64,000 nt of DNA. Source: Fibrobacterota bacterium. GTDB lineage: Bacteria; Fibrobacterota; Fibrobacteria; UBA11236. The notes under the pieces are model-generated. The model made no database searches. It was given only the letters and a program-made list of their open reading frames with translations, and was not told the DNA's origin. This document shows, piece after piece, positions 19,374-46,549 of this stretch. The stretch spans positions 124,001-188,000 of the forward strand of contig JAQBPO010000062.1 of NCBI GenBank assembly GCA_028287465.1, read 5' to 3'. Each line of letters opens with the position of its first letter. Position 1 is the stretch's first letter. A program made the position numbers and the translations under genes.

Positions 19374-19419
19374 AACTTTTGGGGGCCAGCAAAGTGCCGT
19401 AAAACCCTTGGAGCACCGC

Positions 19420-22239
19420 ATGATTTCCAATTCCCCCCGCGCCATCCTCGAAAAGCTGAACAAGTACACCAAGAGCCTGCTCGAAGGCGCGGTCGGGTCC
19501 GCCGTGAACCGCTCCCATTACGAAATCACCCATAGCCACCTGCTCTTGCAGGCGTTGGAAGAGGGCAAGGGCGATCTCTCCTACATCCTCGCGACCTTCA
19601 AGATCAACGAGGGCCTTTTCAAGACCGCCCTGCAGCAGGAACTTAAGGAATTGCGCATGGGCAATACCGGCCGTCCGGTCTTTTCGCCCACCTTCATGAA
19701 CCTGCTGGAAGCGGCATGGGCTGAGTCCTCCCTGAATCTGGGACAGGCGAGCATCCGCACGGCGGGCATGGTCCTGGCCCTCAAGAAAATGGCGGGCTCC
19801 ATCTCCCGCGGCCTTTCCGATCAGCTCGCCATGATCAATACGGAAACCCTCCTGTCCAAGTTCGGCGAGATCACCTCCCATTCCAAGGAGACGGAAGAGG
19901 CGCCCGAGGCCGGCGCGCGCGGCGAGGACGGCGCTCCCGCGGAAGGCTCCAACCTCCAGCGCTTCACGGTCAACTTCACCGAGATGGCCCGCAAGGGCAA
20001 GGTCGACCCCATCTTCGGGCGCGACAACGAGATCCGCATGGTCATCGACATCCTTTCCCGCCGCCGCAAGAACAACCCCATCATGGTGGGCGAAGCGGGC
20101 GTGGGCAAGACGGCCGTGATCGAAGGCCTTGCCCTGCGCATCGCCCAAGGTCAGGTCCCGGACATCCTCAAGAACGTGGAAATCCGCGGGCTGGACATGG
20201 GCCTGATGGCCGCCGGCGCGGGCGTGCGCGGCGAGTTCGAGAACCGCCTCAAGGGCGTCATCAAGGAGGTCAAGTCCTCCGTCACTCCCGTCATCCTCTT
20301 CATCGACGAGACCCATACCATCATCGGCGCGGGCGGCGAAGCCGGCCAGAACGACGCGGCCAACCTGCTGAAGCCGGAAATGGCGCGCGGCGAGCTCAAG
20401 ATCATGGGCGCCACCACCTTGACCGAGTTCCGCAAGTATTTCGAAAAGGATCCGGCCATGGCCCGCCGCTTCCAGATGGTCAAGGTCGAGGAACCGGATC
20501 CCGAGACCGCCGCCATCATGTTGCGCGGTCTCCGCGTCAACTACGAGAAGTTCCACGGCGTGAAGATCACCTATGAGGGCATCAAGGCCGCCTGCGAGCT
20601 GTCCCACAAGTACATCGCCGGCCGCCAGCTGCCGGACAAGGCCGTGGATCTGCTCGACACCGCCGCCGCGCGCGTGAAGATGGGCCTGACCGCCAAGCCC
20701 CCGGTCCTGGTCAACCTGGACCAGGCCGTCGAGAACCTGAAGATCGAAATCGCCGCCCTGGAAAAGGATGAGTCCACAGGCGTCCTCTCAGACAGGGAAA
20801 TCCTGGGAAAATGCCGCGAGAGCCTGGAAGCCGTCACCGCCCAGGCCGCCGAGGTTGAGACCAAGTGGAAGGCCGAACTGGAAGCCGTGAAGGAAATCAT
20901 CGCCATCCAGGACAAGCTGTCCCCGCCGGCCAAGGATGCCAAGGGCGCGAAGTCGAAGGATGCCAAGCCTGCCGATCCCAAGGGAGAGGCCTCGATTGAA
21001 CCCGTCGCCCTCAAGCCGGAAGAAGTGGCCGCCCTCCGCGCCGAAATGGACTTGAAATGGAAGGCCCTCGAAGCCACCCAGGGCGAATCCCCCATGGTCC
21101 ACGCCCACGTCTCCCGCGAAGTGATCGCCCAGATCATCGCGGAATGGACCGGCATCCCCGCCGGCAGCATGCTCAAGAACGAGGCCCAGGCCCTGATCGA
21201 CCTGGAGAAGACCATCAACGAGAAGGTGGTGGGCCAGGAAGGGGGCGTCCAGGAGATAGCGTCCACCCTGCGCAGCGCCAAGCTCGGCCTCGGCAATCCG
21301 GAAGCGCCCATGGGCGTATTCCTCATCACCGGCCCCTCCGGCGTGGGCAAGACCGAGGTCGCGCGCACCATCTCGGACGTGCTCTTCGGCGGCGAGAAGT
21401 TCGTGGTCACGATCAACATGTCGGAATATCAGGACAGCATGTCCATCACCCAGCTGAAGGGCGCCAGCGCCGGTTACGTAGGCTACGGGGACGGCGGCGT
21501 GCTCACGGAAGGCGTGCGCAAGCGCCCCTATACCGTGGTCATCCTGGACGAGGTGGAAAAGGCCCACAAGGACGTGCTCAACATGTTCTACCAGGTGTTC
21601 GACAAGGGAACCCTGCGGGACGGCGAAGGCCGCGACATCAACTTCCGCAATACCGTCATCATCATGACCAGCAACCTGGGTCTGGACACCATCACCCGCA
21701 TGGCCAACGACGGCAATGCCTATACCCTGGACGATATCCGCGAAGGCATCCTGCAGGAGCTGACCGATCATTTCGCCCCGGCCCTGTTGGCGCGCTGCAA
21801 GGTGATCCCTTTCCTGCCCCTTGACTCCGAGGTCCTGAAGCGCATCGTCTTCCTCAAGCTGATGAAGCTGGGCAAGCGCCTGATGGAAAAGCACAGGCTG
21901 GCCTTCGCCGTGGCCCCGGAAGTGGTCCGGGACATCGTCATGCTCTGCACCACCTCCCAAAGCGGCGCGCGCAATATCGACACCATCATCGATCAGAAGC
22001 TGATGCCGGAGATTTCCAAGAACATCCTCATCCACATGGCCGAGGACAAGGTGTTCACCCATCTCTTCCTCGCTTCGGACGAGAAGACCGGATTCCAGTG
22101 CAGCTTCTCCGTGGGCGACTTCCAGATGCCCGAATCCTCCCAGGACGGCGAGTCCGCGGAGGCGGGCGAAACCGAATCGGAAGACGAGGCCATGATCCTG
22201 GATCGTACCAAGGCCGCGACTGCGGAAGAGGCCGGGTAA
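19420..22239 (+). CDS. clpV: T6SS sheath-recycling ATPase ClpV (TssH)
   Basis: 939-residue class-I Clp/Hsp100 unfoldase that disassembles contracted T6SS sheaths. The N-domain occupies about 1-160. The first AAA+ module has Walker A GEAGVGKT (about residue 223) and [15 protein letters not shown]; the second has GPSGVGKT (about 638) and [11 protein letters not shown]. ClpV-type rather than ClpB-type features are [37 protein letters not shown] and [21 protein letters not shown] long Lys/Ala-rich insert lies between the modules around the coiled-coil region. ATG 19420 is chosen over the TTG at 19408 because GGAG is correctly spaced before it. It lies 235 bp upstream of vgrG1; other core tss genes are absent from the window. 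Confidence 0.93.
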
Positions 22240-22474: not shown

Positions 22475-24589
22475 ATGGCTTCAGCGGATACATCGATTTT
22501 CACCCTTCAAGTAGGCGCCTTTCCCCTGGATACCTTCCGGGTGATCGACTTCATCGGTCGGGAAGCGCTTTCCGAATGCTTCTCCTTCACCATCCGGGCC
22601 GTGGCTTTCGACATCGACGTCAAGTTCGACGATGCCATCGGCGTGGCCGCAACCCTGACCGTGGGCGGGGGGGAATACGAGATCAAGCACTACGGCAACA
22701 TCACGAGCTTCACCCAGGTTCCGGATAGCGACGGCACGGTCATGCTCAACTCCACCTACGAGTTCATCCTCGAGCCGCGCTATAGGATCGCCTCCTATAT
22801 GATCCAGAGCCGGATCTTCCAGAACAAGACGGTCCTCGAGATAGTCGAGGAAGTGCTGGGGGCCTATTACTACAAGGACACGGATTTCAAGTTCGATGCC
22901 CAGTTCGAGGTGAAGGGCCAGGACTACGCCAAGCGCGAATTCACCGTGCAGTACAATGAATCCGATCTCGATTTCGTCCAGCGCCTGCTGGAGGATGAGG
23001 GCCTCTTCTTCTTCTGGAACCACGAGGGCGACCGCGAGGTCATGATCATCACCAACAAGAAGGACGCGGTCAAACCCGTCCCCAACACCCCCAAGCTCCC
23101 CTTCCGCCCCGAAACCGGCATGCACCAGGAAAAAGGGGAATACGTCGATTCGATGCTGAAAAGCATGAAGATCGTCACCGGCCGCGCGACCATGAAGGAC
23201 TACAACTACAGGACGCCGGACACCAAGGTCATCGGCCATTACGAGATGGAAGGTCCCGGCGAGTATTACCATTTCGGCGATCACGTCAAGACGACGGACG
23301 AGGCCAAGCGCCTGGCGCAGATCCGCACGGAGATGTTCGCCTGCGAACGGGAGATCTACCGGGGCACGGGCATCGCGCGCTCCATCCGGCCGGGATACCG
23401 CTTCACCCTGGAACTGGCGGGTGCGGAAGGCTTCAACGGCGACTATATGATCACGCGCGTCACCCACCGCGGCGATATCGTGCAGGCCGCGGACGACGGC
23501 ACGGTGGAGAAGACCACCAAACCCATCCCCCATTACACCAACAGTTTCGAAGCCATTCCCGCCCTCGTGCAGTTCCGTCCCCAGTTGATGACGCCCAAGC
23601 CCAAGGCCCCGGGCATCCTCACCGCCAAGGTCGACGGCCAGAAGGGCTCCTACGCCTACCTGGACGAGGAAGGCCGCTACCGCATGAAGCTGTTCTTCGA
23701 CCGGACCGAGGACCAGGACGGCAAGGCGAGCAAGGCCATCCGCCTGGCCCAACCCTATGCGGGCGCCGGCTACGGCATGCATTTCCCCCTGCACACGGAT
23801 ACGGAAATCGTAGTGGGCTTCGTGGACGGCGATCTCGATCGGCCCATCGGCCTGGGCGCGGTCCCCAATCCGGGGAAGGGCACGCCGGTCAAGGCGGGCA
23901 ACAATTCCCAGAACATGATCAAGTCCCACTCCGGGCATTCCGTCACCTTGGACGACAAGCAGGGCAAGACCGGCATCCATATCGTCACTTCCGGTGGCCA
24001 CGCCATGGGCCTGGACGACAGCGCGGATACCAAGGGCTGGACCGTGAAGACCTCGGGCGGCAACGCCTTGGCGGCGGACGACAAGAACAAGAACATCGAC
24101 TTCAAGACCACCGGGGGCATGGAGCTCAAGCTCGACGACCAGGGTACGACCATTACCCTGGTGACCACCGGCAAGAACACCCTGGAGATGAAGGACGGCG
24201 GCCATGTCGTCACCCTGAAGGACGGGAGCGGGAACATCTCGCTCACCATGAACGGGGATTCCGGCAAGGTGGAGCTTAAGGCGAGCCAGGAAATCAAGCT
24301 TACCGTGGGCGCCAGCAGCCTGACCATGGGCATGGACGGGACCATCAAGCTCGACGGCAAGGACATCACCATCAGCGGATCCGCCAGCGTCATGGTGGAC
24401 GGCGGTCCCAAGGTCACCATGAAGGGCGTCGACGCCTCCGTCAGCGGGACCGGTTCGGTGAACATCGCCGGCGGTACGGTGACTTCCGAGGCCAAGACCC
24501 TGAACACCATCAAAGGCGCGGCCATCATGTCCGACGCCTCCGCGGTCAACACCGTCAAGGGCGGCGCCGCCGTCATGCTGAATCCCTGA
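22475..24589 (+). CDS. vgrG: T6SS spike protein VgrG (copy 1)
   Basis: 704 residues. The N-terminal part is the gp27/phage-tail-hub-like region (SECFSFTIRAVAF, IEPRYRI-like LEPRYRIASYMIQ, FTVQYNESDLDFVQRLLEDEG). An OB-fold gp5 domain follows (ILTAKVDGQKGSYAYLDEEG, FPLHTDTEIVVGFVDGD, DRPIGLGAVPNPGKGTPV near 463). The C-terminus is a beta-helix of short repeats rich in TTGG, DD and LxMxDGG motifs. No extra effector domain is fused. A good ribosome-binding site (GAGGGA) precedes the start. It heads an operon with two DUF2169 adaptors and leads into the RHS cassettes, which suggests that those effectors ride on this spike. Confidence 0.95.
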   Translation: MASADTSIFTLQVGAFPLDTFRVIDFIGREALSECFSFTIRAVAFDIDVKFDDAIGVAATLTVGGGEYEIKHYGNITSFTQVPDSDGTVMLNSTYEFILEPRYRIASYMIQSRIFQNKTVLEIVEEVLGAYYYKDTDFKFDAQFEVKGQDYAKREFTVQYNESDLDFVQRLLEDEGLFFFWNHEGDREVMIITNKKDAVKPVPNTPKLPFRPETGMHQEKGEYVDSMLKSMKIVTGRATMKDYNYRTPDTKVIGHYEMEGPGEYYHFGDHVKTTDEAKRLAQIRTEMFACEREIYRGTGIARSIRPGYRFTLELAGAEGFNGDYMITRVTHRGDIVQAADDGTVEKTTKPIPHYTNSFEAIPALVQFRPQLMTPKPKAPGILTAKVDGQKGSYAYLDEEGRYRMKLFFDRTEDQDGKASKAIRLAQPYAGAGYGMHFPLHTDTEIVVGFVDGDLDRPIGLGAVPNPGKGTPVKAGNNSQNMIKSHSGHSVTLDDKQGKTGIHIVTSGGHAMGLDDSADTKGWTVKTSGGNALAADDKNKNIDFKTTGGMELKLDDQGTTITLVTTGKNTLEMKDGGHVVTLKDGSGNISLTMNGDSGKVELKASQEIKLTVGASSLTMGMDGTIKLDGKDITISGSASVMVDGGPKVTMKGVDASVSGTGSVNIAGGTVTSEAKTLNTIKGAAIMSDASAVNTVKGGAAVMLNP

Positions 24590-24612: not shown

Positions 24613-25731
24613 ATGTCTTCCGAAACCAGAGAAAAGCCGAAGCCCAAGGTCGCGCACGCCATCCTGCCCGGCCAGGACGAGGAGGGGAACCCCATCTTCT
24701 CCATGCTCGTCAAGCGCACCTATGATTTCACGGCGAACGGGATCGCGACCCGGGCGGAGCAGGACGAAAAGCTCCGTCCCATCGACGAGTATTACGATAT
24801 GGGGGACCCGCAGACCGCCACGGTGAAATACGAGTCGGACCTGGTCCCCTTCAAGGCCCTCACCGACGTGGTCTTCATCGGAAAGGCCATGGCCACCGGC
24901 GGCGTTCCCGTCACCGCCATGGACGTGGGCATCCAGGTGGAAGGCGCGGGTGCCAAGATCGTCCGGGTCATCGGCAACCGGCGCTGCGTCTTCCAGCCCA
25001 ACCGGCCGCCCTTGTTCACGCCTCCGGAACCTTTCACGGAAATGGAGATCCGCTACGACTACGCCTTCGGCGGCAAGGACAAGAAGAGCCTTCCCGACGG
25101 ACCGTTCCATTATCCCCGCAACGATATGGGCCGCGGCCTGATCCTGAAAAACAGGAAGGAGATCGTGGACGGCCTGGAATTGCCGAACATCGAGGACCCG
25201 GCCGATCTCCTGGTTCCCGAAGGCATCGTCCTGGACATCCCCGAAGCGTGGCCGCGCGCGCCCATGCCCCAGGGCCTGGGCTGGTTCCAACGCACCTGGT
25301 ATCCGCGCTCCTTCTATGCCGGTTCAATCCCCCCGTACGTGAATACGGACACCCTGACCAAGGAGGAATTCCTTGGGTTGATTTGGAAGCAGCATATCGT
25401 CCTGGCCCGCAAGAGCAAGCTGCCGGGCTTCCATACCCGCTTTCTGCAAGGCGCCTCGCCCGGCCTCTCCTTCCCCAACCTGAAGGGAAACGAAACCATC
25501 CGACTGCGCGGCCTTAGCGCGGAGGGCATGCTCAAGTTCACTTTGCCCGGAGAGACCCCCAGCTTGCGCCTGGACATCGGCGACGGCTACAAGCATCTCG
25601 ATCCGGTCCTGCATACCATCTGCGTACGCGGGGAGGACCGCCAGGTCGACCTGGTCTGGCGCGGCTCCCTCCCCTACCCCGGCATCGAATACCTGGCCGA
25701 GATGACCACGCTCGCGGCGGAGTCGGACTGA
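24613..25731 (+). CDS. DUF2169 T6SS effector-adaptor protein
   Basis: 372 residues spanning the DUF2169 family: VKRTYDFT near the N-terminus, VVFIGKAMATGGVPVTAMDV, IRVIGNR-like IVRVIGNRRC, DYAFGGKD, NDMGRG and a C-terminal GEDRQVDLVWRGSLPYPGI. DUF2169 proteins are found next to VgrG and PAAR/RHS genes and are thought to help load cargo on the spike. Its stop overlaps the next start by one base, so it is translationally coupled to a second, diverged member of the same family. Confidence 0.85.
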   Translation: MSSETREKPKPKVAHAILPGQDEEGNPIFSMLVKRTYDFTANGIATRAEQDEKLRPIDEYYDMGDPQTATVKYESDLVPFKALTDVVFIGKAMATGGVPVTAMDVGIQVEGAGAKIVRVIGNRRCVFQPNRPPLFTPPEPFTEMEIRYDYAFGGKDKKSLPDGPFHYPRNDMGRGLILKNRKEIVDGLELPNIEDPADLLVPEGIVLDIPEAWPRAPMPQGLGWFQRTWYPRSFYAGSIPPYVNTDTLTKEEFLGLIWKQHIVLARKSKLPGFHTRFLQGASPGLSFPNLKGNETIRLRGLSAEGMLKFTLPGETPSLRLDIGDGYKHLDPVLHTICVRGEDRQVDLVWRGSLPYPGIEYLAEMTTLAAESD

Positions 25732-26804
25732 TGGCCATCCAGAAGATTTTCCTGCCCGGCCAATCCCCGACGGGCGAACCCATCTACAGCCTCATCACCA
25801 AGCGCACCTACGATATCGTCCCCGGCGGAAAGTGCACGCGCGCCAAGGAAGACAAGAAGTTGTTCCCCGCCGACAAGCATTGGGGCGATCCGATGAACTC
25901 GTCGGTCCGCTTCGAAACCGATCATATCCCCTACAAGCTGCAGACGGACGTGGCCTTCGACGGCAAGGCCTATTCCCTGGGCGGCGTCCCCGTCCAGAAC
26001 CTGACCTGCGCCATCGTCATCGGCAAGGCCCGCAAGGAGGTCCTGGTGGTCGGGGACCGGATCTGCCGTTGGATGGACGGAGGCAGGATCGCCGCGACGC
26101 CTCCGGCGCTTTTCGCCACCATGGAGCTGCGGAGCGAGAACGCCTACGGGGGCGTGGACGTCTGGAGCGATCCCAAGATGCCCTACTCCTACCCGCGCAA
26201 CCATCTGGGCAAGGGGTTCGTGGTCAAGCCCAATCCCAAGTCCCTGTTCAACCTGGAATTGCCCAATATCGAGGATCCCAAGGATCGCATGACGGCCGAG
26301 CGGCTGTGCATCATGGAAATGAAGTTCTGGGAGAAGCAGCCCCTTCCCGCAGGGCTCGGTTGGATCTCCAAGATCGCGCCGCCCCGGAGCAGCCTGGCGG
26401 GCGTGATGCCCGGGGACGTGGCCCTGGAAAAGGAATTGCGGGAGGCCAATGCCGCCCTGCTGGACGCGAAGAACCGCGAGCTCTACATGGCCCATCCCCT
26501 TCCGCGCATGGATTTCCGGTACTTCAACGGCGCCGCCCTGACCCTGCCCTATATGGCCGGCGACGAAGGCATCCGCTTGGAGAACCTTTCGCCGGAAGGC
26601 GTGCTGGAATTCCAGCTGCCCGGCGAGGTCCCCAAGGTGCATATCGACATGGGCCTGGGCCCCCAGGATCCCCAGGCCTTCCTGCATACGGTGCAGATCC
26701 GCGGCGAGGATCGCCAGGTGGACCTGGTCTGGCGCGCCTGCGTGTCCTACCCGGGCATGGACTGGCTGCCGCAAATGACCAAACTCGATCTAACGGTGGA
26801 ATGA
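25731..26804 (+). CDS. DUF2169 T6SS effector-adaptor protein (second copy)
   Basis: 357 residues, homologous along its length to the preceding gene: ITKRTYDIVPGGK, VAFDGKAYSLGGVPVQNL, NAYGGVDVWSDP, NHLGKG and GEDRQVDLVWRACVSYPGM. The core is shared but the mid-region before MDFRYFNGAALTLPYM is different, consistent with each adaptor serving a different cargo. Two RHS cassettes follow, so a one-adaptor-per-effector arrangement is possible but not shown by the sequence. Confidence 0.85.
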   Translation: MAIQKIFLPGQSPTGEPIYSLITKRTYDIVPGGKCTRAKEDKKLFPADKHWGDPMNSSVRFETDHIPYKLQTDVAFDGKAYSLGGVPVQNLTCAIVIGKARKEVLVVGDRICRWMDGGRIAATPPALFATMELRSENAYGGVDVWSDPKMPYSYPRNHLGKGFVVKPNPKSLFNLELPNIEDPKDRMTAERLCIMEMKFWEKQPLPAGLGWISKIAPPRSSLAGVMPGDVALEKELREANAALLDAKNRELYMAHPLPRMDFRYFNGAALTLPYMAGDEGIRLENLSPEGVLEFQLPGEVPKVHIDMGLGPQDPQAFLHTVQIRGEDRQVDLVWRACVSYPGMDWLPQMTKLDLTVE

Positions 26805-31600: not shown

Positions 31601-32020
31601 CCCGGTAGCGGTCGATATATTTCGCAGGATCCAATAAGACTGAAAGGGGGGATTTCACCTTATCAGTATGTTCACAACCCTATTCATTGGATTGATCCCC
31701 TTGGCCTTTGCGCCGACAAAGCGACATTAAAACCGGAAGCCAAATATTTAGGAAGTAAGAAGCACGGCATTGAATGGAAGGAAGGGCCAGCAACGGCCAA
31801 CAAGACGGGAATACCTCAAGGTCAGTGGGGGAGCAAAGCCGATCTTGCCCACGCAGGAGAGCAAGCTGCGACTCTGAAGCCCGGAGAAGGTGCTACCTTT
31901 AGCTTGCCTCCGGGATCAAGTTCCGTCGTTCACCTGCCTGACGGCAGTACGGTTCCCGCGACTCAAATGTGGGTACGGAACAATGGAACCGGGACATTTC
32001 ATGGCTACCCAATGGAATAG
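28676..32020 (+). CDS. RHS-repeat T6SS effector A with unassigned C-terminal toxin
   Basis: 1114 residues from a GTG start (GAGGAT upstream; the MPI N-terminus matches RHS B). The RHS/YD-repeat shell runs from the N-terminus to about residue 1012, with many G..YDxxGR/G..xxYxYD units and the core-closing block YFDSESGLHYNNYRYFDPGSG, ISQDP, WIDPLGLC, after which the toxin is cleaved off and stored inside the shell. The 102-residue tail (1013-1114) has HGIEWKEGPATANKTG, PQGQWGSKADLAHAGEQ, VVHLPDGSTVPATQ and TFHGYP. I do not recognise its family; four His residues suggest a small metal-free nuclease or other enzyme, but that is speculation. The next gene is the likely immunity gene. Confidence 0.88.
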   Translation: MPIDIGSGAVLQDVEEISIPGRYPLKWTRHYHSTVNTESDSPFGVGWASPYSARLTRQGKEYRFVTPSGGTVLFPDPQDLIDHLGTLRDLKSRHEITRVGSQLLITNWTVNGKLTRYYFQPGRNGQWWPLRSLEDATGQGIELAWDEQGRLKGLRQKLEKRTLAVAYAATGLIASVSFRHADGRQTIMCRYEYDPNGRLSAAFDALGHATRYEYTAEGLLFRELEKDGAVFTYKYDDQGRCIRYGGLDNYNLKVLRYFDHTGWTEVTNSYGKTRRYERLPSGQIIQEIDPSGGFTHTEYDGFFRIRSTTGPMGEKTAYEYDESGNRTRVINALGHETVYEYNDRHLITCEIDPMGGRWERTYDERNRTLSAKDPMGYEYAVEYDQAGNPVQLKKPDGAISRRRFSDNGDLIESSDWEGRLTTLGRDGFGRIVHRRDPDGTTLAFQYDLVGRMTLVADEQGRNDRYDFDAIGNMTRWSSSTAMSVQYRYGTCKRLLEKKAESGAPTKYRWGSEPDRLESVINEKGEIYTFTYDANDRVMRETGFDTGSISFKFDLSGRCIGKTNALGQSVDWQLDAIGQLIGESLPDNEKSSFQYDSLGNVISAENAWAKLAFERDATGRLLTEEQNGFALHRKYDAADQVMSLETDAGIRISYAYDGNGMISSVNANGLGTYEFTRNARSQATAINLPGGMRLEHTYDARGRLLRQAVGDAESSTAKSDPLLERNYAFDDSDLLLSITDGRWGKARYGYNPDQRLIQFASEPMRIEYDLDVSGDPVATVMNGEKRRESSYGPGGMLLTHGDIQYAYDAAGRLVSKSDSKHGNASGKWQYHWDAKDRLRKLTTPEGESWEYEYDPFGRRITKKGPNRNIHFVWDRAVLVHEVEEGQETKTWGFEPGGFKPLFKIQSGNLFSMIRDHLGTPREMVNANGNIEWSIFLDPWGNPIAGTGNLEDCPFRYQGQYFDSESGLHYNNYRYFDPGSGRYISQDPIRLKGGISPYQYVHNPIHWIDPLGLCADKATLKPEAKYLGSKKHGIEWKEGPATANKTGIPQGQWGSKADLAHAGEQAATLKPGEGATFSLPPGSSSVVHLPDGSTVPATQMWVRNNGTGTFHGYPME

Positions 32021-32032
32021 TGGAGAGACTAC

Positions 32033-32560
32033 ATGGACTTCTTGATTCAAGCTTCGAACCCGAAATTCGCCGGTCATCACGATGATGGAGACCAAAATCT
32101 TGATGAAGCAATCGAGTCTTCATTTCCATTGGAGACCGAGAGCGCCTTTCTGGTTTGGCATCATATTCCCATTGCGTTGAGCTACAAGTATGACATCAGC
32201 GTGATTGCGGTGGACCTGATTGCATTGCTTTCCAAGCTATTGCGGGAACCGGCCGGCACCCATGAGGTGGAATGGCCATCCAACACCTTTCATGCCCGCT
32301 GGAAAATGATTTGGAATGGCGAGGGATTGACGATTGAGTCGGATTGGAAATCGGTGGTCGGTGGTTTGGAAGCGCAGTTGAACGCAAGCGGTCAACTCAG
32401 GCTTTCAAAAAAAGAATTCGTTTCGGAATGGAAAGAGGTTTTGAAACGGACTATTGAGGGGCTTAAAAGCAATGGCTATGAACCGCATCTGATAGTTGGC
32501 ATGGAAGACCTGGCTCAACTGATTGATAAAATCCCGGGCGTTGGACTCTTGTACCATTAA
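32033..32560 (+). CDS. Putative immunity protein for RHS toxin A
   Basis: 175 residues with no signal peptide or membrane helix, hence cytoplasmic. It begins 12 bp after the RHS A stop with GGAGAG in front. Visible features are an acidic N-terminal part (GHHDDGDQNLDEAIESSF), WHHIPIALSYKYDI and a C-terminal amphipathic region (EFVSEWKEVLKRTIEGLKSNG). The family is not recognised. The position directly after the variable toxin tip is the classical place for a cognate immunity gene. The base composition is lower in GC than the VgrG/DUF2169 genes, as for RHS A itself. Confidence 0.6.
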   Translation: MDFLIQASNPKFAGHHDDGDQNLDEAIESSFPLETESAFLVWHHIPIALSYKYDISVIAVDLIALLSKLLREPAGTHEVEWPSNTFHARWKMIWNGEGLTIESDWKSVVGGLEAQLNASGQLRLSKKEFVSEWKEVLKRTIEGLKSNGYEPHLIVGMEDLAQLIDKIPGVGLLYH

Positions 32561-32662
32561 TTGCGTCCATTCGAACCCAATCAAAAGACCCACCCTGCAA
32601 TGCCCCTTATACCAATCTCCATCCCCTGACTTCTACTCTAAAAGGGATTTCCGGAAAAAAAC

Positions 32663-33318
32663 CCGGCTAAAGGAAGATTCCATGAGCGATTCGGAACGCA
32701 TTCTGAAATTGGTAGATGCATATAAGGGCGACAAGGGCGGTCAAGCCGGTGAGGCGGCGCTCAACCAGTTGCTTGCCGCGAGCGACGAGGAGCTTGGGTA
32801 CTTGTTCTTCCCAAGTGAAAAATCCAAATGGGAAGCAGCCGCGGAGATTCTGTACCGAATCGGATTCCCAAGATTGACAACCCGGATACCTCAGCTCTTG
32901 GAGTGGTTCCAAGATCTGAATTGGCCGGGAATCGATGTCATCACGAATTTGTTGCGAAACGTTTCGCATGAAGAATTGCTCATGCAAATGGAAAAGGCCG
33001 TCCGAATCGCGCACGCCGAAGAGGACGAACAATGGATAGGTGGATTGAAACGCTTGACCCTGACTCTTGGCCTTGATGCCGACAGGTTTTCGGATCCCCT
33101 CCTAACCGCCGATTTGCTCAAGAACGTTTTTTACTAGTCATCGTCTCATAAAATGGAAAATAAACCACGCTTAAGGGAACTCACCGGCGCCAATGCCGAA
33201 TCGAAAGGCCGGACGCCCGATTCGGTGTAGGGACCGAATAATTCCGGAAATTAGTCATGCCATTATTTCCAGCAGTCTCCATGGGTTCGGGCATCGTTGG
33301 GCTGGACATCCACGCCCA
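32663..33318 (+). repeat. Direct repeat B (near-identical to 27235-27890)
   Basis: This is the second copy of the DUF5071 gene, gap and start of the PAAR-like gene, at a constant distance of 5428 bp from copy A. Upstream of CCGGCT at 32663 the two contexts are unrelated. Confidence 0.85.
32682..33137 (+). CDS. DUF5071-type immunity-like protein (copy B)
   Basis: 151 residues, nearly identical to 27254-27709 at DNA and protein level (MSDSERILKLVDAYKGDKGG versus MSEAERILKLVDAYKSDKGG). ATG 32682 is supported by AAGGAAG. It is cytoplasmic and mostly helical, with the DUF5071-like core LLEWFQDLNWPGIDVI. It lies after the RHS A immunity gene and before PAAR-like B, so it is not next to a toxin tip of its own. 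It is either an orphan immunity gene carried with the cassette or a fixed accessory of the PAAR-like gene. Confidence 0.75.
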   Translation: MSDSERILKLVDAYKGDKGGQAGEAALNQLLAASDEELGYLFFPSEKSKWEAAAEILYRIGFPRLTTRIPQLLEWFQDLNWPGIDVITNLLRNVSHEELLMQMEKAVRIAHAEEDEQWIGGLKRLTLTLGLDADRFSDPLLTADLLKNVFY

Positions 33319-34075: not shown

Positions 34076-37000
34076 ATGCCGATTAATGTCGCTTCGGGTG
34101 CAGTCCATTTCGACAAGCAGGACATCCGGATTACGGGGAGGTTCACACTACACTGGGGACGAAGCTACCATTCTGGCCTGACCGGGGACATGGACTCGCC
34201 CTTCGGACAGGGATGGACCAATGTGTGCTTCGCGAAACTCACCCGCTCCGGGAAGGATTACCGTTTCCAAAGCCCATCGGGGTCGATCATCCAATTTCCG
34301 GACCCGGATGATTCCGTTGAGCGACAAGGGACGATCCGGGATTTAGGCAGCTTTCATGAGATCTCCCGCCAAGGATTCCAGCTTCGGGTCACCCAATGGG
34401 GATTAGACGGAAGTATCACGAGATACCATTTCCAACCGGAAAGAAACGGACAATGGTGGCCATTAAGGTCGGTTGAGGATGCGACAGGCAATGGGCTGGA
34501 ACTGGCTTGGGATGAACAGGGCAGGCTCAAAGGTCTTAGGCAGAAACTGGAAAAAAGGACGCTCGCGGTATCCTACACCACCGGGGGGCGCATCGCTTCG
34601 GTCGCCTTCCGGTATCCCGATGGAAGACAACAGATCCTCGCCCGTTATGACTATGACCCGAATGGGCGATTGTCCGCCGCCATCGATGCGCAGGGATTTT
34701 CGGAACGCTATGAGTACGATCCTTCAGGAAGGATAAGCCGAGAGATAGCCAAGGATGGGGGCATCCTCACCTTCAAATATGATGACAAGGGACGATGCAT
34801 CCGTCTATGCGGGTTGGACAATTACAATCTGAAGGTGCTGAAATACCTGGATCATATCCAATGGACCGAGGTTAAAAACAGCATTGGCAATACCACTCGA
34901 TATCAGTGGCTTGCATCCGGCCAAGTCACCCTTGAAATGAGTCCGTCCGGTGGAAAGACGGAAACCTCGTATGATGAGCATGGGCGCATCATATCCAAAG
35001 TCGGCCCATTGGGTGACAAAACCGAATTCGTATTCGATGGGGATGGAAACCGTTCCAAGATAATTGATGCGCTGGGGCAAGAAACCTCATTCAAGTACAA
35101 CGCATCCCATTTGCCCGTCGAATACGTCGATACGGCCGGCGGGAGCTGGAAAAAGGTCTACGACGAAGCCAACCGGGTTGTCTGTGCATCGGATCCTGCC
35201 GGATCTAAATGGACTGTGGAATACGACAAGTCAGGCAACGCGGTCACCATCGAAAGGCCTGACGGAGCGACCAGAAAGCAACGGTATGCCGAATCCGGTC
35301 GCCTTGAGGAGACCACGGATTGGGAGGGTCGTAAGGCCTCCTTTATCCACGATGAATTCGGCCGAACCGTTCTACGTCGCGACCCTGATGGATCTACGAC
35401 TTCCTTCGAATATGACCTATCCGGAAGGCCGCTGAAAATCGCATCATCCGGAGGCAAATCCGTCGTCTACGCCTATAATGCGGCGGGAAATGCCGTCCGC
35501 ATGGATAAATCCGGCGAGACTCCTATCCATTACAGGTACGGAACCTGCCGAAGGCTTCTGGAACGTAAGGATGGCGCAGGAAATGCGATTCGATATACCT
35601 GGGGTACCGAGCCTGATCGATTGGAAACGGTTTTCAATGAAATCGGTGAAGCATACCGATTCACCTATGATGCAGCGGAACGCGTTTCCATGGAAACGGG
35701 ATTCGACGGCAGGAAAACGGTATTCAAATACGACCTTTCGGGCCGATGTATCGAAAAGACCAATGGCTTGGGTCAGCGGATTTCATTCAAGCATGACCTT
35801 CTTGGCCGGATTGTGGAAGAAGACGCTGAAGGCGATGAGCCATCCGTTTTTACATATGACAAACACGGCAACCTCGCGACCGCGGCCAATTCCTGGGGCA
35901 GCCTGGTTTTCGAGCGGGACGATCTTGGCCGCGTTATAAGCGAATCCCAAGACGGATTCAAGATTCTGAGGCGCTATGATCCCCTCGGGAAGGTACTCGG
36001 ACTGGAGTCGGATGCCGGGATCGAATTCGAATACACCTACGACAAGAACGGTCTGGTAGCTGGAATCGATGCGAACGGTCTTGGCCGATACGCCTTCGAA
36101 CGAAATGAACGGAGCCAGATTTCCGCCAGAACGCTTCCAGGCGGACTCCGGCTCGAGAACGCCTATGATTCGCGCGGCCGGTTGTTGAAACAGGCGATAT
36201 CGGGTCCAGGGATGGATCCGTTGCAACCACTAACCATCGTAAAACGGGATTATGCCTACGGCGAATCCGATCTCCTTCACAGTATTGAAGACGGGCTTTG
36301 GGGCAAATCCACCTACTCTCATGATGAGGCGCGGAGACTCGTACAATTCGCGACGGCGGAAGGACAAACGGCCTTTCGACTAGCTCCAACGGGCGATATC
36401 GAATCAACCAGGTCGAACGCCGATTCCGAAGTGACTTTCGCTTATGGCCCTGGCGGAAGACTGGTGCGGCAGGGGGAATCCGATTACTTCTACGATGCCG
36501 CCGGACGATTGGTCTTGAAGTCAACCATAGACAGGTTTGGATCCCGGTCGGAGTGCACGTATTCCTGGGATGCTAAGGATCGTCTCAGGTCGTTCAAGAG
36601 CGCCGAGGGTACCTTTTGGGAATATACCTATGACCCGCTCGGCAGGAGATCATCCAAGAAAGGCCCTGAAAAGGAAATCAGGTATATCTGGGACGAGAGC
36701 GTTCTTCTCCATGAAATGGAGAAGAACGGTAAAACCGTGACTTGGGGTTTCGACCCACACAGCTTCAAACCGCTTCTCAAGATCGATGGCGGGTCGCTTC
36801 TTTCAATCATCCATGACCATCTCGGTACTCCCCGGGAAATGCTGGACGCCAAGGGGAAAATCGTATGGGCGACCCGGTTTGATCCATGGGGCAACCCGAT
36901 TGCAGGAAAAGGCCGATTGGACGATTGCCCATTCCGGTTCCAAGGCCAATATTTCGATGGGGAATCCGGACTACATTACAATAGGTTCCGGTATTACGAT

Positions 37001-37510
37001 CCCAAGGTAGCAAGATTCATTTCGCAGGACCCGGCCAGGCTTACCGGAGGAATCTCGGCCTATCAGTATGTGCATAATCCGCTCCATTGGATCGACCCTC
37101 TAGGGCTGTGCGGAGAAGAGGAAAAGCCTGCGGAAACTACATTCAGAGGGGAACGCTCCAGCAATGACCCCGAAAAGGTGTTCCAAGAAGGGTTAAAATC
37201 CAAAGGCGACAACATGGACCTTCTACGGCATTGCGAAGGTAACAAACCGGATACAGGGTATCTGTCGTCCTCCCAGGATATCGGTATTGCCGAAGGTTTT
37301 GCGGGAAAGAATGGATACGTCTACGAAATCGAGACCAACAAGGGGATTAATGCGAATGAGACCTTGGGTTCGGCTTCTCCCTTTCCCGAGCAAAAAGAGG
37401 TTTCCGTCCCAACAGCGATCCAGCCGGGTGAGATCAAGGGCGCATACCCCGTTAAAGGGGGGAAGATGACCGGTGAATATATACCCAACCCGAATTTCGG
37501 AGGTGGCTGA
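34076..37510 (+). CDS. RHS-repeat T6SS effector B with ADP-ribosyltransferase-like toxin
   Basis: 1144 residues. The RHS/YD shell (1 to about 1012) is the same length as in RHS A and closes with ISQDP...WIDPLGLC. The 132-residue tail (1013-1144) has the layout of an R-S-E class mono-ADP-ribosyltransferase: R1024 in FRGERSS, the serine motif YLSSSQD (S1064-S1066), a hydrophobic GYVYEIET strand, and PEQKEVSVP with Q1106 and catalytic-type E1108 (QxE). In this class ExE usually marks arginine as target, whereas QxE occurs in enzymes modifying other residues, including the pierisin/scabin group that modifies guanine in DNA. The target here is inference. It overlaps the next start by one base. Confidence 0.85.
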   Translation: MPINVASGAVHFDKQDIRITGRFTLHWGRSYHSGLTGDMDSPFGQGWTNVCFAKLTRSGKDYRFQSPSGSIIQFPDPDDSVERQGTIRDLGSFHEISRQGFQLRVTQWGLDGSITRYHFQPERNGQWWPLRSVEDATGNGLELAWDEQGRLKGLRQKLEKRTLAVSYTTGGRIASVAFRYPDGRQQILARYDYDPNGRLSAAIDAQGFSERYEYDPSGRISREIAKDGGILTFKYDDKGRCIRLCGLDNYNLKVLKYLDHIQWTEVKNSIGNTTRYQWLASGQVTLEMSPSGGKTETSYDEHGRIISKVGPLGDKTEFVFDGDGNRSKIIDALGQETSFKYNASHLPVEYVDTAGGSWKKVYDEANRVVCASDPAGSKWTVEYDKSGNAVTIERPDGATRKQRYAESGRLEETTDWEGRKASFIHDEFGRTVLRRDPDGSTTSFEYDLSGRPLKIASSGGKSVVYAYNAAGNAVRMDKSGETPIHYRYGTCRRLLERKDGAGNAIRYTWGTEPDRLETVFNEIGEAYRFTYDAAERVSMETGFDGRKTVFKYDLSGRCIEKTNGLGQRISFKHDLLGRIVEEDAEGDEPSVFTYDKHGNLATAANSWGSLVFERDDLGRVISESQDGFKILRRYDPLGKVLGLESDAGIEFEYTYDKNGLVAGIDANGLGRYAFERNERSQISARTLPGGLRLENAYDSRGRLLKQAISGPGMDPLQPLTIVKRDYAYGESDLLHSIEDGLWGKSTYSHDEARRLVQFATAEGQTAFRLAPTGDIESTRSNADSEVTFAYGPGGRLVRQGESDYFYDAAGRLVLKSTIDRFGSRSECTYSWDAKDRLRSFKSAEGTFWEYTYDPLGRRSSKKGPEKEIRYIWDESVLLHEMEKNGKTVTWGFDPHSFKPLLKIDGGSLLSIIHDHLGTPREMLDAKGKIVWATRFDPWGNPIAGKGRLDDCPFRFQGQYFDGESGLHYNRFRYYDPKVARFISQDPARLTGGISAYQYVHNPLHWIDPLGLCGEEEKPAETTFRGERSSNDPEKVFQEGLKSKGDNMDLLRHCEGNKPDTGYLSSSQDIGIAEGFAGKNGYVYEIETNKGINANETLGSASPFPEQKEVSVPTAIQPGEIKGAYPVKGGKMTGEYIPNPNFGGG

Positions 37511-37935
37511 TGCCAGAAAAATATCCCGTGAAGATTCTAGAGCCCTCCGGAAATACCGTTGATTCTGAATTGGAGGCATGGGAAGAATCCCCATCCGACA
37601 ACGATTCGGTCATGCTTCAACTTAAGGTTTCCGATGGCGATTTCAGTAGTACGGCTGAGGATTATTTTTCCGCCCTGGTGGAAATACGAAGGCAGCTGGA
37701 AAAACATGGGAGAATGCTGGTTGCGTATGGCGCGAGTTTGAACGTTTATCCGTCTCCCATGAGTCGCAGCATGGGCACGGGCGAAAAGGCTTATAAGTTG
37801 ACTCTAGGCCTACAGGCTAAGACTTCCGACCTTGTTTCGATTTTCGAATCAGGGCCGGATGTCAACCCGAGTACGGTCGAGGAGCAGGAGGAGTTCTTCA
37901 GAAAATGGTTGCAGAGCCTGAAAAAAGAAGGTTAA
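37510..37935 (+). CDS. Putative immunity protein for RHS toxin B
   Basis: 141 residues, cytoplasmic, with its ATG overlapping the RHS B stop by one base (TGATG), so the two are translationally coupled. Visible blocks are EDYFSALVEIRRQLEKHGRMLVAYG-type helices (the longest around residues 50-74), YPSPMSRSMGTGEKAYKL and a C-terminal EEFFRKWLQSLKK. The pattern with SRSMGTG and a final charged helix is seen in uncharacterised genes next to RHS toxins, but I cannot name the family. Coupling and position make immunity against the ADP-ribosyltransferase tip the most likely role. Confidence 0.65.
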   Translation: MPEKYPVKILEPSGNTVDSELEAWEESPSDNDSVMLQLKVSDGDFSSTAEDYFSALVEIRRQLEKHGRMLVAYGASLNVYPSPMSRSMGTGEKAYKLTLGLQAKTSDLVSIFESGPDVNPSTVEEQEEFFRKWLQSLKKEG

Positions 37936-38390
37936 GCACCGTTTGAATTTAGTGTTTCCATCCGTAACCGATTACGGATTTCCATGAGGATCTTGCCTAA
38001 CATGTTCAAACCCGCGCCGTCCTTTCCGCATCCCCAGTAAGAATCATGATCAGCCTTCTCGATGATTTCCTGATCTCCGGTGTCGAGAAGGATGGTCCGG
38101 ATATCCGTATGGGTGCGGAACTTTTCGAGAACCGCCTCGCGCATGATAGAGTCCTTCACCAATTCCCAATCAGGCCGAAGGGTGAACGCCCGATTTCGGC
38201 CCAGATTTGCGGCTTCTTTCGGAGATGGGGCATTTCTTATCTTTTCCTCCGGTTCCGCTCCTTCGAATTTCATGGCTTGGAAGTAATGCTCACTGGTCGG
38301 CCAGAATTTCCCTTTCAATTCGAAACCATGCGGCGAAAAATTGGAAAAGCAGCCGAACGCTTCCCGTACCGAGTAGAAGTACAAAGACAC
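37932..38390 (-). CDS. NADAR-domain protein (YbiA family)
   Basis: 152 residues covering one NADAR domain: FGCFSNFSPHGFELKGKFW, PTSEHYFQAMKF, KEAANLGR, ILLDTGDQEIIE and the end SYWGCGKDGAGLNMLGKIL. NADAR enzymes cleave N-glycosidic or ADP-ribose bonds; members paired with DarT-type toxins remove ADP-ribose from guanine. This gene converges with the putative RHS B immunity gene (4-bp overlap of ends) and lies next to an ADP-ribosyltransferase-like toxin, so an antidote role is an attractive inference. GTG start with a perfect AAGGAGG ribosome-binding site (38395-38401) and a hairpin just upstream. Confidence 0.88.
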   Translation of the reverse strand: MSLYFYSVREAFGCFSNFSPHGFELKGKFWPTSEHYFQAMKFEGAEPEEKIRNAPSPKEAANLGRNRAFTLRPDWELVKDSIMREAVLEKFRTHTDIRTILLDTGDQEIIEKADHDSYWGCGKDGAGLNMLGKILMEIRNRLRMETLNSNGA

Positions 38391-38404
38391 GAATCCTCCT
38401 TATC

Positions 38405-38425: not shown

Positions 38426-38593
38426 AGGGCGACGGTCGAATCCGACCTATATTTCGCATTCACCGGCGAGCCATAAATATACCGATTTTGAGAGCTGGGG
38501 AGTGAAATCGCAAGATCCATCTATTCCGGACAGACAAGTACGGTTGTAAAAATGCAGACGGGCGCAAGCCCGCCGAGCGGGTAATACGAGAAC

Positions 38594-43262: not shown

Positions 43263-45443
43263 ATGCCCTCCTCGACAAGCCTGAAGTTCGGACTCAAGAT
43301 CGGTTCCCATCCCCCGGATAAATTCCGCGTTCTGGAATTCACCCTGAACGAAGCGGTCTCCGAGTGCTTCCACCTGCATATCGAGGCGACGTGCGAGGAC
43401 GGCGAAGTCCCTTACGGGGACATGATCGGCATGGAAGCGACCCTGAAGGTGGAAGGCAAGGATTTCCCCATCTCCCACCATGGAATCGTCACCGAGTTCA
43501 ACCAATACCCGGACACGGGCGGGAACTTCGGCCATGAGACCTACCTCTACGATATCGTCATCGAACCGCGATTCCGCCTCCTTTCCTACAATACATCGAG
43601 CCGCATCTTCCTGAAGAAGAAGATCAAGGACATCGTGGAGGAGGTGCTCCATGCCAACGACTTCGCGTCGGTCCATTATGAACTCCAGCTCACCGGGACC
43701 CCGCGCGAGCGCGAATACACCGTTCAGTACAACGAAACCGATCTCGATTTCGTCTGCCGGTTGCTGGAGGACGAAGGCATCCACTTCTATTTCGATCATT
43801 CGGGCGACCACGACAAGCTGATCCTGGCGGACAGCGTGGATGCGGTCAAGCCCATCCCGGAAACCCCGGCGGTGGACCTGATGGGCGACGCGGGCCTGTC
43901 CCACCTCGCTTCCGAGGCGGAATTCCCGGATCACATCTCCAGGATGCGCCGCACCCAGCGGATGGTGACGGGCAAGGTGACGATCAAGGACTATAATGAC
44001 CGCACCCCTGCCGTGAACATCCTGGGGAAAGCCTCCAGGCCGGGCCAGGGCGAAGCCTATCATTACGGGCCCCAGGCCCTGAACACGACCGAGGCGGAGC
44101 GCATCGCCAACCTGCGCGCGGAAATGCACGCCTGCTCCAGGGTGCAACTGGAAGGGGAAGGCATCTGCCGCGCCTTCCGGGCGGGCATGCGTTACGAGCT
44201 CAGGGATTCCGGCGGGCTAACCTCCTTCGAGGGCAAGTACACCCTGCTGCGCGTGGTCCATCACGGCGACCAACGCGAAGGGTTCGAAAGCGACGAGGCC
44301 AAGAGCATCTACTCCAACACCTTCCAGTGCATGCCCGCGGACGTGGTCTACCGGCCCGCCCTGCGCACCCCCAAGCCACGCATCCACGGCATCCTCTCCG
44401 CCAGGGTCGATGGCGTGGAAGGCCAATACGCCTACCTGGACGACGACGGCCGCTACCATGCCAAGATGCCCTTCGATCTCACCAGCCTCAAGGACGGCCA
44501 GGCCAGCCTGCCCATCCGCATGAACCAGCCCTACGGGGGCCCCAATTACGGCATGCATTTCCCGGTCCACAACGGGAACGAGATGGTGCTGGGCTTCGAG
44601 GACGGCGATCCGGACCGGCCCATCATGCTGGGCACGGTGCCGAACCCGGGCAACGGCTCCCCGGTCAACAAGCGCAACCCTTCCGAGAGCATCATCCGCA
44701 CCGCCTCCGGGCACCAGATCCGCCTGGACGACAAGGACGACAAGACGGTCATCGAGATCACCACCAAGGGCAAGCACGTCATCACCCTGAACGACGATGC
44801 GGACCATCAGGAGATCCGCATCAAGACCACGGACGGGAACGAGCTGGTCTTCGACGACAAAGGCAAGAACATCCGCCTGTGCACGCCCGGCGGCGCCCAT
44901 GCCATGAAGATGGATTACGATAAGAAGGTCTTCTCGGTCGAGACCAAGTACGGCCATAAGCTGGTCATGGACGACGAGGCCAAGGCCATCGCCATGCTGA
45001 CCAAGGAGGGCCATACCCTCCAGTTGAACGACGAGAAGAAGCTGCTCACCCTCCAGGACGGCAAGGGCAAGCATGTCTTCCAGATCGACGCGGGAGGAAG
45101 CGTGGTCTCCATCGTCACCGAGGGGGATCTGGAATTCAAGGCCAAGGGGGCGCTCAACATCGAGGCCAAGGAAATCAACATCGAGGCCAAGCAGGGCGCC
45201 GTGAACCTGAAGGCCAAGCAGGACCTGATGCTGGACGGGATGAACGTGAACGCCAAGGCCAAGCAGAAGATAGCCCTGGAAGCCTCCATGGACGCCAGCC
45301 TCAAGGGGCTCAACCTCAAGATGGAGGGCAAGGTCAACGTGGAATCCAAGGCCGGCGTGCAGAACAAGATGACCGGGGTGATGACCAATGTGGAATCCTC
45401 GGCCATCAATACCCTCAAGGGCGCCATGGTGATGATCAACTGA
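43263..45443 (+). CDS. vgrG: T6SS spike protein VgrG (copy 2)
   Basis: 726 residues, same architecture as VgrG1: hub region (SECFHLHIEATCEDGE, IVIEPRFRLLSYNTSSRIF, EYTVQYNETDLDFVCRLLED), OB-fold (GILSARVDGVEGQYAYLDDD, MHFPVHNGNEMVLGFEDGD, TVPNPGNGSPVNK near 458) and a C-terminal beta-helix of short repeats that becomes strongly Lys/Ala-rich (FKAKGALNIEAKEINIEAKQ). No fused effector domain. It overlaps the following DUF2169 gene by one base. The two VgrGs diverge in the needle region, as expected if each carries its own set of adaptors and effectors. Confidence 0.95.
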   Translation: MPSSTSLKFGLKIGSHPPDKFRVLEFTLNEAVSECFHLHIEATCEDGEVPYGDMIGMEATLKVEGKDFPISHHGIVTEFNQYPDTGGNFGHETYLYDIVIEPRFRLLSYNTSSRIFLKKKIKDIVEEVLHANDFASVHYELQLTGTPREREYTVQYNETDLDFVCRLLEDEGIHFYFDHSGDHDKLILADSVDAVKPIPETPAVDLMGDAGLSHLASEAEFPDHISRMRRTQRMVTGKVTIKDYNDRTPAVNILGKASRPGQGEAYHYGPQALNTTEAERIANLRAEMHACSRVQLEGEGICRAFRAGMRYELRDSGGLTSFEGKYTLLRVVHHGDQREGFESDEAKSIYSNTFQCMPADVVYRPALRTPKPRIHGILSARVDGVEGQYAYLDDDGRYHAKMPFDLTSLKDGQASLPIRMNQPYGGPNYGMHFPVHNGNEMVLGFEDGDPDRPIMLGTVPNPGNGSPVNKRNPSESIIRTASGHQIRLDDKDDKTVIEITTKGKHVITLNDDADHQEIRIKTTDGNELVFDDKGKNIRLCTPGGAHAMKMDYDKKVFSVETKYGHKLVMDDEAKAIAMLTKEGHTLQLNDEKKLLTLQDGKGKHVFQIDAGGSVVSIVTEGDLEFKAKGALNIEAKEINIEAKQGAVNLKAKQDLMLDGMNVNAKAKQKIALEASMDASLKGLNLKMEGKVNVESKAGVQNKMTGVMTNVESSAINTLKGAMVMIN

Positions 45444-46549
45444 TGGAGTGGCTCTCGCATTTCATACCGGGCAACGCGGCGGACGGCTCCCCGATCCTAT
45501 CGGTGCTGGGCAAGAGGACCTATACCCTGCGGAACGGAAAACCCGCCCTCGCGGCCGAAGAGCAGGAACCCTTCCTGGAGGCCGACGTCTTCTGGGGGGC
45601 CGGCAACCCGCAATCGGACGCGGTCAGGCTGGAATCGGACCTGATCGCCTTCAAGCCCATGACCGACGTCATCGTCCTGTCCAAGGCCCATGCCCCTTCC
45701 GGACGCCCGGTGAAGCAACTCGACGTGGGCGTGCAGGTGGGGCAATCCCGGAAGATCATCCGCGTCATCGGCAATCGCAAGGCCTTCGTCACCCTCACCG
45801 GTATCGCTTTCACGGAACCGGAGGCCTTCTCCGAGATGCCCATCGATTATTCCCGGGCCTACGGGGGCTCGGACGCCTTGAGCGCCGAGGGGATCGCCTA
45901 CACCTACCTGAAGAACGCCGCGGGCCGCGGGTTCGTGATCAAGGATACCCCCAAGGTCGTACAGGATCTCCTGCTCCCCAATGTCGAGGATCCGCAACGG
46001 CTGCTCACTCCCCAGAACCTGGTCCTGGGCGAATACGGGAAATGGAAATCCGCCCCCGATCCCGTGGGCTTCGGCTATACCGGCAAGGGCTTCCATCCCC
46101 GCTTCACCTTCGCGGGCCTGCCTCCGGACCATTGGGCCGAGGCGGAAGCGGAACGCAAGCAGTCCCTGAAGAAGGCCCCGGAAATCGGGTCCAAGCCTTC
46201 GGCCATCCCCCCGTCCATGGCGCCCATGCTCAACCCGCGCTTTTTCAACGGCGCCTCCAAGGGCCTATCCCTCCCCTTCCTCAAGGGGGACGAGTCCATC
46301 AAACTGGCCCATCTGGATCCGGCCATCCCCCAGTTCACCTTCAACCTGCCAGGGGTGCGCCCCCGGGCCTGGCTGGACGTGGGCCAGGGTCCGGAGGAAA
46401 TGGACATGGTCTTGCATACGGTGGTGATCGACAAGGAATCGGACCGCCTCACCATGGTCTGGCGGGGATGCGCCTATTACGGCGGCCTTGAAGCCATGAA
46501 GGCCTTCACCAACCTGGAGTACGGGGTCAAGGAGGATCACCATGGGTAA
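45443..46549 (+). CDS. DUF2169 T6SS effector-adaptor protein (third copy)
   Basis: 368 residues. Family blocks: VLGKRTYTLRNGKPALA, DVIVLSKAHAPSGRPVKQLDV, IIRVIGNRKAF, RAYGGSDALSAEG, NAAGRGFVIKD and SDRLTMVWRGCAYYGG. The start overlaps the vgrG2 stop by one base and the end overlaps the PAAR gene by 8 bp, so spike, adaptor and tip effector are translated together. This strongly links the adaptor to the PAAR-M23 effector. The LGKRTYTL N-terminal strand is shared with the two copies downstream of vgrG1. Confidence 0.85.
   Translation: MEWLSHFIPGNAADGSPILSVLGKRTYTLRNGKPALAAEEQEPFLEADVFWGAGNPQSDAVRLESDLIAFKPMTDVIVLSKAHAPSGRPVKQLDVGVQVGQSRKIIRVIGNRKAFVTLTGIAFTEPEAFSEMPIDYSRAYGGSDALSAEGIAYTYLKNAAGRGFVIKDTPKVVQDLLLPNVEDPQRLLTPQNLVLGEYGKWKSAPDPVGFGYTGKGFHPRFTFAGLPPDHWAEAEAERKQSLKKAPEIGSKPSAIPPSMAPMLNPRFFNGASKGLSLPFLKGDESIKLAHLDPAIPQFTFNLPGVRPRAWLDVGQGPEEMDMVLHTVVIDKESDRLTMVWRGCAYYGGLEAMKAFTNLEYGVKEDHHG

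Follow-up and report, generated by a model that had tools for sequence, protein, structure and literature searches.

A NADAR gene beside a TreX/TriX-family toxin–immunity pair in a type VI secretion island of a Fibrobacterota bacterium: a candidate second layer of self-protection

Introduction

Why does a gene for a NADAR enzyme, a predicted remover of ADP-ribose, lie tail to tail with the immunity gene of an RHS toxin? The arrangement occurs in a 64,000-nt stretch of DNA from a Fibrobacterota bacterium (assembly GCA_028287465.1, contig JAQBPO010000062.1, positions 124,001 to 188,000 of the forward strand), which was analysed as a whole and is called the window here. An earlier reading made from the letters alone (the sequence-only reading) had described at this place an RHS C-terminal tail with the R-S-E layout of an ADP-ribosyltransferase (ART), a coupled putative immunity gene and a convergent NADAR gene with a very strong ribosome-binding site. 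It took the toxin for an effector of a type VI secretion system (T6SS) that modifies guanine in nucleic acid, with the NADAR enzyme erasing the damage as a second defence. The description of the genes and their assignment to a T6SS were confirmed throughout, while the interpretation as a whole is partly supported. We consider it probable, from comparison of sequences, that the locus encodes a TreX/TriX-family RHS effector which the T6SS would direct against other bacteria, with an ART tail of the guanine type, and that the producer would be protected in two layers, by a TriX homologue blocking the toxin and by a NADAR enzyme erasing its product. Guanine as the substrate, an action of the NADAR on the resulting adducts and an obligatory pairing of the two are not established by the sequences.

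The toxin tail and its TriX-family partner

The effector is encoded by an open reading frame (ORF) of 1144 codons (34076-37510, plus strand) that ends in a tail of 132 amino acids. The tail matches the Pfam Scabin-like family PF22596 (E 3.4e-14, 53.3 bits against a cut-off of 27), and the solved structures nearest to it by phmmer are TreX (8s2m_B, 1.6e-14), ScARP (6.7e-8) and Scabin (1.5e-6). The catalytic letters R / S-x-S / Q-x-E stand at R1024 (FRG), S1064-S1066 (YLSSS) and Q1106-x-E1108 (EQKE), so that both the position and the motifs given by the sequence-only reading were right. An AlphaFold run on the tail with two sequences reached a predicted local distance difference test (pLDDT) score of only 37.5, and the assignment of the ART fold is therefore based on homology to solved ARTs. 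The start of the next ORF overlaps the toxin stop (37510). A Pfam scan of this ORF gave no family; its product is a TriX homologue by direct comparison and by a four-member profile (Table 1). Since the tail and the following gene match both halves of the solved TreX-TriX complex, the pair can be identified with high confidence, and judging from these scores the homologies of tail, immunity protein and NADAR are far beyond chance. TriX homologues were found downstream of related tails at further loci (L004, L007, L024, L005, L016 and L034). At two of them, on a Streptomyces plasmid (L016) and in another actinobacterial genome (L034), they follow E-x-E Scabin-like toxins, which means that the TriX family reaches Gram-positives.

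What the tail modifies may be read from the form of its signature. Scabin, ScARP and pierisin carry Q-x-E and modify guanine, while among ARTs generally E-x-E goes with arginine. The Q-x-E of the tail makes guanine, of DNA or of RNA, its most probable substrate, and its FPEQKE follows the aromatic and Q-x-E context of Scabin (WADQVE). A protein might be the target instead, either arginine, which would be expected from the E-x-E relatives, or asparagine, the target of C3-type enzymes, with the NADAR uninvolved or acting on free ADP-ribose derivatives. TreX, the nearest solved relative, itself has E-x-E (EAE) where the window tail has QKE, and Q-x-E is also present in the asparagine-modifying C3-type enzymes (PMC7764402). 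The characterised Scabin-like members with Q-x-E nevertheless modify guanine and the FPEQKE context is theirs, and we think a protein target improbable.

The tail is isolated in its phylum. Among 168 genomes of the phylum this is the sole one with a Scabin-like domain, and no relatives of the tail were found across 151-168 of them. A search of the genome contigs with the tail pattern returned two loci; viral contigs held no relative, and the sole match of a phage search was a distant toxin.

The NADAR gene

The NADAR ORF scores 1.8e-41 against PF08719 (142.5 bits, cut-off 35.1), and the closest solved protein is E. coli YbiA (2b3w, 3.5e-40). All ligand-binding and catalytic residues are present (E34, K41, E111, D116 and W119, mapped by sequence to the residues of PMC11543638), and the Glu at E111 places the protein in the YbiA subfamily. 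The gene converges on the immunity gene so that their ends overlap, starts with GTG and has the strong Shine–Dalgarno sequence that had been claimed for it. A dyad just upstream could be an operator; no second exact copy of it was found in the window or in the loci from other genomes. A terminator-like hairpin lies nearby at 38557-38574.

The activity known for such enzymes would suit the tail. NADARs hydrolyse the guanosine ADP-ribose made by ScARP, on DNA as well as on RNA (PMC11543638, PMC11125620, PMC11833690), and the roles of bacterial NADARs outside DarT operons have been stated as an open question (PMC11125620). This is the only NADAR gene in the 5.8-Mb genome. In the phylum 8 of the 168 genomes, this one included, have a NADAR, and none was found in 10 other genomes of the same genus, family and order.

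Recurrence of the three-gene cassette

A tblastn search of plasmids led to a relative on the 1.57-Mb Methylobacterium aquaticum plasmid NZ_AP014705 (L004). Reading of its unannotated DNA showed a further RHS gene and behind it a tail that is displaced and 48% identical, a TriX homologue (40%) and a NADAR (51%), contiguous and in the same order as in the window. The start of the NADAR overlaps the immunity stop. Since the record holds only one NADAR, the chance of its falling within 1.5 kb of the cassette is about 0.003. The toxin is decayed while the TriX homologue and the NADAR are intact, as expected for genes with a protective function.

Other loci show that the linkage is not general. In a Thermoanaerobaculia metagenome-assembled genome (L007, genome G168) an RHS tail 50-53% identical to that of the window is followed by a TriX homologue (51%). 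At an Acidobacteriota locus (genome G427, L024 4740-5398) the tail is decayed, with stop codons and a replaced catalytic Glu, beside an intact TriX homologue; by its sequence this is a case of immunity kept after the toxin died. NADAR is missing in two of the four close relatives, and about 35 other NADAR loci, from plasmids and three phyla, include none that adjoins such a tail or a TriX gene. The linkage of NADAR to related tails in other genomes, whose lack the sequence-only reading had named among its refuting results, was seen once, on the Methylobacterium plasmid, and was absent at the two loci from Thermoanaerobaculia and Acidobacteriota. These latter loci, having tail and TriX without NADAR, indicate that TriX alone can suffice; it is the constant partner and the NADAR is optional.

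Among Actinobacteria no NADAR (of the profile used) was found within about 6 kb of Scabin-like ARTs. A NADAR is present somewhere in each of the seven actinobacterial genomes that carry a Scabin-like ART (G587, G692, G725, G810, G898, G916 and G933), compared with about 10 of the 272 without such an ART, in a comparison which takes the smaller genome sample to be the opening portion of the larger. This difference was not counted, being confounded by lineage and genome size and involving NADARs of another subfamily.

A passenger or a second layer of immunity

Several observations weigh against a protective role of the NADAR in this locus. The NCBIfam model TIGR02464, a riboflavin-intermediate N-glycosidase, scores it above cut-off. 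The Methylobacterium tail is N-terminally truncated and lacks the catalytic Arg, and its NADAR is co-directional whereas that of the window is convergent. A sister relation between the two cassette NADARs is not clear, as they stand apart in the best tree (approximately unbiased test, AU p 0.087); this favours independent recruitment without showing it. Finally, the available Thermoanaerobaculia genome sequence has no NADAR, neither beside its tail and TriX gene nor elsewhere, and the Acidobacteriota genome has none either.

The toxin–immunity pair could be real and the NADAR have nothing to do with it, being a passenger of the YbiA type, with a housekeeping or anti-phage role, that came to lie in a T6SS island where foreign genes abound. 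The riboflavin N-glycosidase match and the two related cassettes without NADAR would agree with this, as would the convergent orientation with its own transcription unit and the occurrence of close NADAR homologues in unrelated contexts. The composition is also compatible with it, as the tail, immunity and NADAR genes have a GC content of 49-52% compared with 60% for the window, and the small ORFs along 32-39 kb, which may be foreign, are equally low. Against a passenger stand the recurrence of NADAR next to tail and TriX in another phylum and the fit of known NADAR activity to the Q-x-E motif. The anti-phage NADAR model NF053876 leaves the protein far below cut-off, and the sister genomes without NADAR argue that it is not a housekeeping gene in this lineage. 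We regard the passenger as unlikely, if still a serious candidate. The Priestia koreensis plasmid NZ_CP061869 (L009) carries a NADAR that ranks among the closest (62%), in the company of a SUFU-family gene and an HNH/colicin-DNase-like gene, possibly a toxin/immunity island.

In the two-layer arrangement that we favour, the T6SS spike would deliver the effector and the RHS shell would release the tail in the prey at the PxxxxDPxGL motif. There the tail would transfer ADP-ribose from NAD, most probably to guanine bases of the prey's DNA or RNA. Producer and kin would be protected first by the TriX homologue, which would bind and block the toxin. Toxin that slips past TriX, or comes in from kin, would leave ADP-ribose on guanine, and the NADAR, expressed from its own ribosome-binding site, would hydrolyse these adducts. 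We infer the substrate, the eraser step and with it the order of the layers from the motif, the biochemistry of NADARs (PMC11543638, PMC11125620, PMC11833690) and the recurring gene order.

Relation to known systems

Both partners of TreX-TriX from Xenorhabdus bovienii (PDB 8s2m, 8s2n and 9gco) are homologous to the tail and immunity protein of the window, the difference being E-x-E in TreX and Q-x-E here; a link to NADAR was not found in the accessible literature, the primary TreX report excepted. The nearest precedent for the NADAR is the myxobacterial YarT-YbiA module, in which an ART resembling an Rhs C-terminal toxin adjoins a NADAR of the YbiA family which rescues cells from its action (PMC11125620). 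By this precedent the NADAR of the window might serve as the chief antitoxin of a similar module, with the TriX homologue a leftover orphan. YarT, however, is a free-standing H-Y-E ART of the HYD1 clade, with no RHS, no TriX and no secretion, while the window toxin is an RHS-fused R-S-E protein with a Scabin-like Q-x-E tail and not a free small ART. Moreover, it is TriX that is joined directly to the stop of the toxin gene and is found again with related RHS tails, which NADAR is not. A TriX orphan appears highly improbable to us.

In DarTG1 guanine ADP-ribosylation by DarT1 is likewise reversed by a NADAR. DarT1, however, belongs to the ARTD enzymes and has no relation to the tail; the NADAR that accompanies it is a BC4488-family protein (Asp), whereas that of the window belongs to the YbiA family (Glu, E111), and no DarT domain was found in the neighbouring ORFs scanned. 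Tre1-Tri1 and Imm-ARG share the principle that protection from a polymorphic ART toxin comes from an enzyme which takes its modification off again (PMC3482391), and in 2012 such ADP-ribosylglycohydrolase (ARG) immunity was called the only known enzymatic immunity (PMC3482391). There the eraser acts on arginine and is itself the immunity protein, while the NADAR of the window is an extra gene beside TriX. Tre23, RhsP2 and RhsF are RHS T6SS ART toxins that act on RNA, with other ART subfamilies and immunity proteins and no linked NADAR reported; the mark of RhsP2 is on the 2'-OH and is reversed by PARG, not NADAR (PMC11833690).

The pairing of a NADAR with a T6SS RHS toxin had been put forward as new. 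A literature search of incomplete coverage turned up no NADAR described from an RHS/T6SS effector locus, and to this extent the claim stands. It is narrowed by YarT-YbiA, a published combination of an Rhs-CT-like ART and a YbiA NADAR (PMC11125620), and by ARG/Tri1 enzymatic immunity, which is also published. The new element seems to be the NADAR as an additional, target-matched eraser gene beside a TreX/TriX effector–immunity pair. If this is true, it would be the first NADAR found in an RHS effector locus, the YbiA branch would gain a role in interbacterial warfare, and immunity would be layered, the enzyme being blocked and the damage then erased.

Such a match between toxin motif and eraser might extend to other TriX-linked tails. 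Three of these have Q-x-E (the window, QKE; Methylobacterium, QLE; Thermoanaerobaculia, QAE) and four E-x-E (TreX, EAE; Agrobacterium larrymoorei, ELE; the Streptomyces plasmid, EEE; the other actinobacterial genome, EKE). NADAR lies beside two of the three Q-x-E tails and none of the four E-x-E tails, a difference that is not significant (Fisher p 0.14, n=7 loci) and in which TreX was counted from the protein alone, its gene context not inspected. On the A. larrymoorei plasmid NZ_CP039693, an ADP-ribosylglycohydrolase gene (DraG/Tri1-like, an arginine eraser; L005 9595-10545) follows about 3 kb downstream of the E-x-E TreX-like RHS tail, past an IS66 element. The match between motif and eraser is suggestive on these sequences. 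One might generalize that TreX/TriX effectors fall into two target classes, Q-x-E for guanine and E-x-E for arginine, and that the eraser which fits, NADAR or ADP-ribosylarginine hydrolase, has been acquired at their loci repeatedly, in independent events, as a second immunity layer. The suggested rule would be that the type of eraser predicts the target of the toxin, which we offer tentatively, as conceivable rather than probable.

The type VI secretion island

The machinery and the spike that a T6SS effector needs are encoded nearby (Table 1), TssH and VgrG both scoring above cut-off; DUF2169 genes are common companions of T6SS PAAR/RHS effectors. Cleavage at PxxxxDPxGL is established for RHS effectors, and in the present protein this release motif (PLHWIDPLGL, amino acids 1002-1011, nt 37079-37108) closes the RHS core. 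The window encodes another RHS effector at 28676-32020. The cores of the two are 38-74% identical per 100 amino acids, and after the common NPxHWIDPLGLC motif identity drops to about 20-25%; it is at this motif that the RHS shell usually gives way to an exchangeable toxin.

Table 1. Features of the locus in window coordinates
Feature	Position	Strand	Evidence or remark
TssH/ClpV, T6SS ATPase	19408..22239	+	TIGR03345 1049.5 bits, above cut-off
VgrG/TssI spike	22475..24589	+	TIGR03361 329 bits, above cut-off
Two DUF2169 genes	24613..26804	+	PF09937 3e-55 and 4e-57
RHS shell/core of effector	34076..37111	+	14 RHS repeats, DUF6531, Rhs_assc_core
C-terminal toxin, TreX/Scabin-like ADP-ribosyltransferase	37112..37507	+	PF22596, PDB matches, catalytic letters
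TriX-family immunity gene	37510..37935	+	phmmer to TriX 8s2m_A 6.6e-13; four-member profile 9e-26
YbiA-type NADAR, predicted ADP-ribosyl/N-glycosyl hydrolase	37932..38390	-	PF08719
Shine–Dalgarno AAGGAGG of NADAR	38395..38401	-	4 nt upstream of GTG
Perfect 7-bp dyad TTCGCAC-N7-GTGCGAA	38405..38425	-	just upstream of NADAR Shine–Dalgarno sequence

The C-terminal tail of the other RHS effector (28676-32020, within 28676-33137) is unrelated and was assigned to no family. It is followed by an ORF of 175 amino acids of no known family, a putative immunity gene, and then by a DUF5071 gene; a further DUF5071 gene is found at 27209-27709. The stretch 43263-48230 encodes a second VgrG together with a DUF2169 protein and a PAAR protein that carries an M23 peptidase domain and is likely a T6SS effector that cuts peptidoglycan. 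At 17297-19270, adjoining the T6SS genes, the window encodes a Ser/Thr protein kinase with Big_2 and PEGA domains, possibly a regulator of the T6SS.
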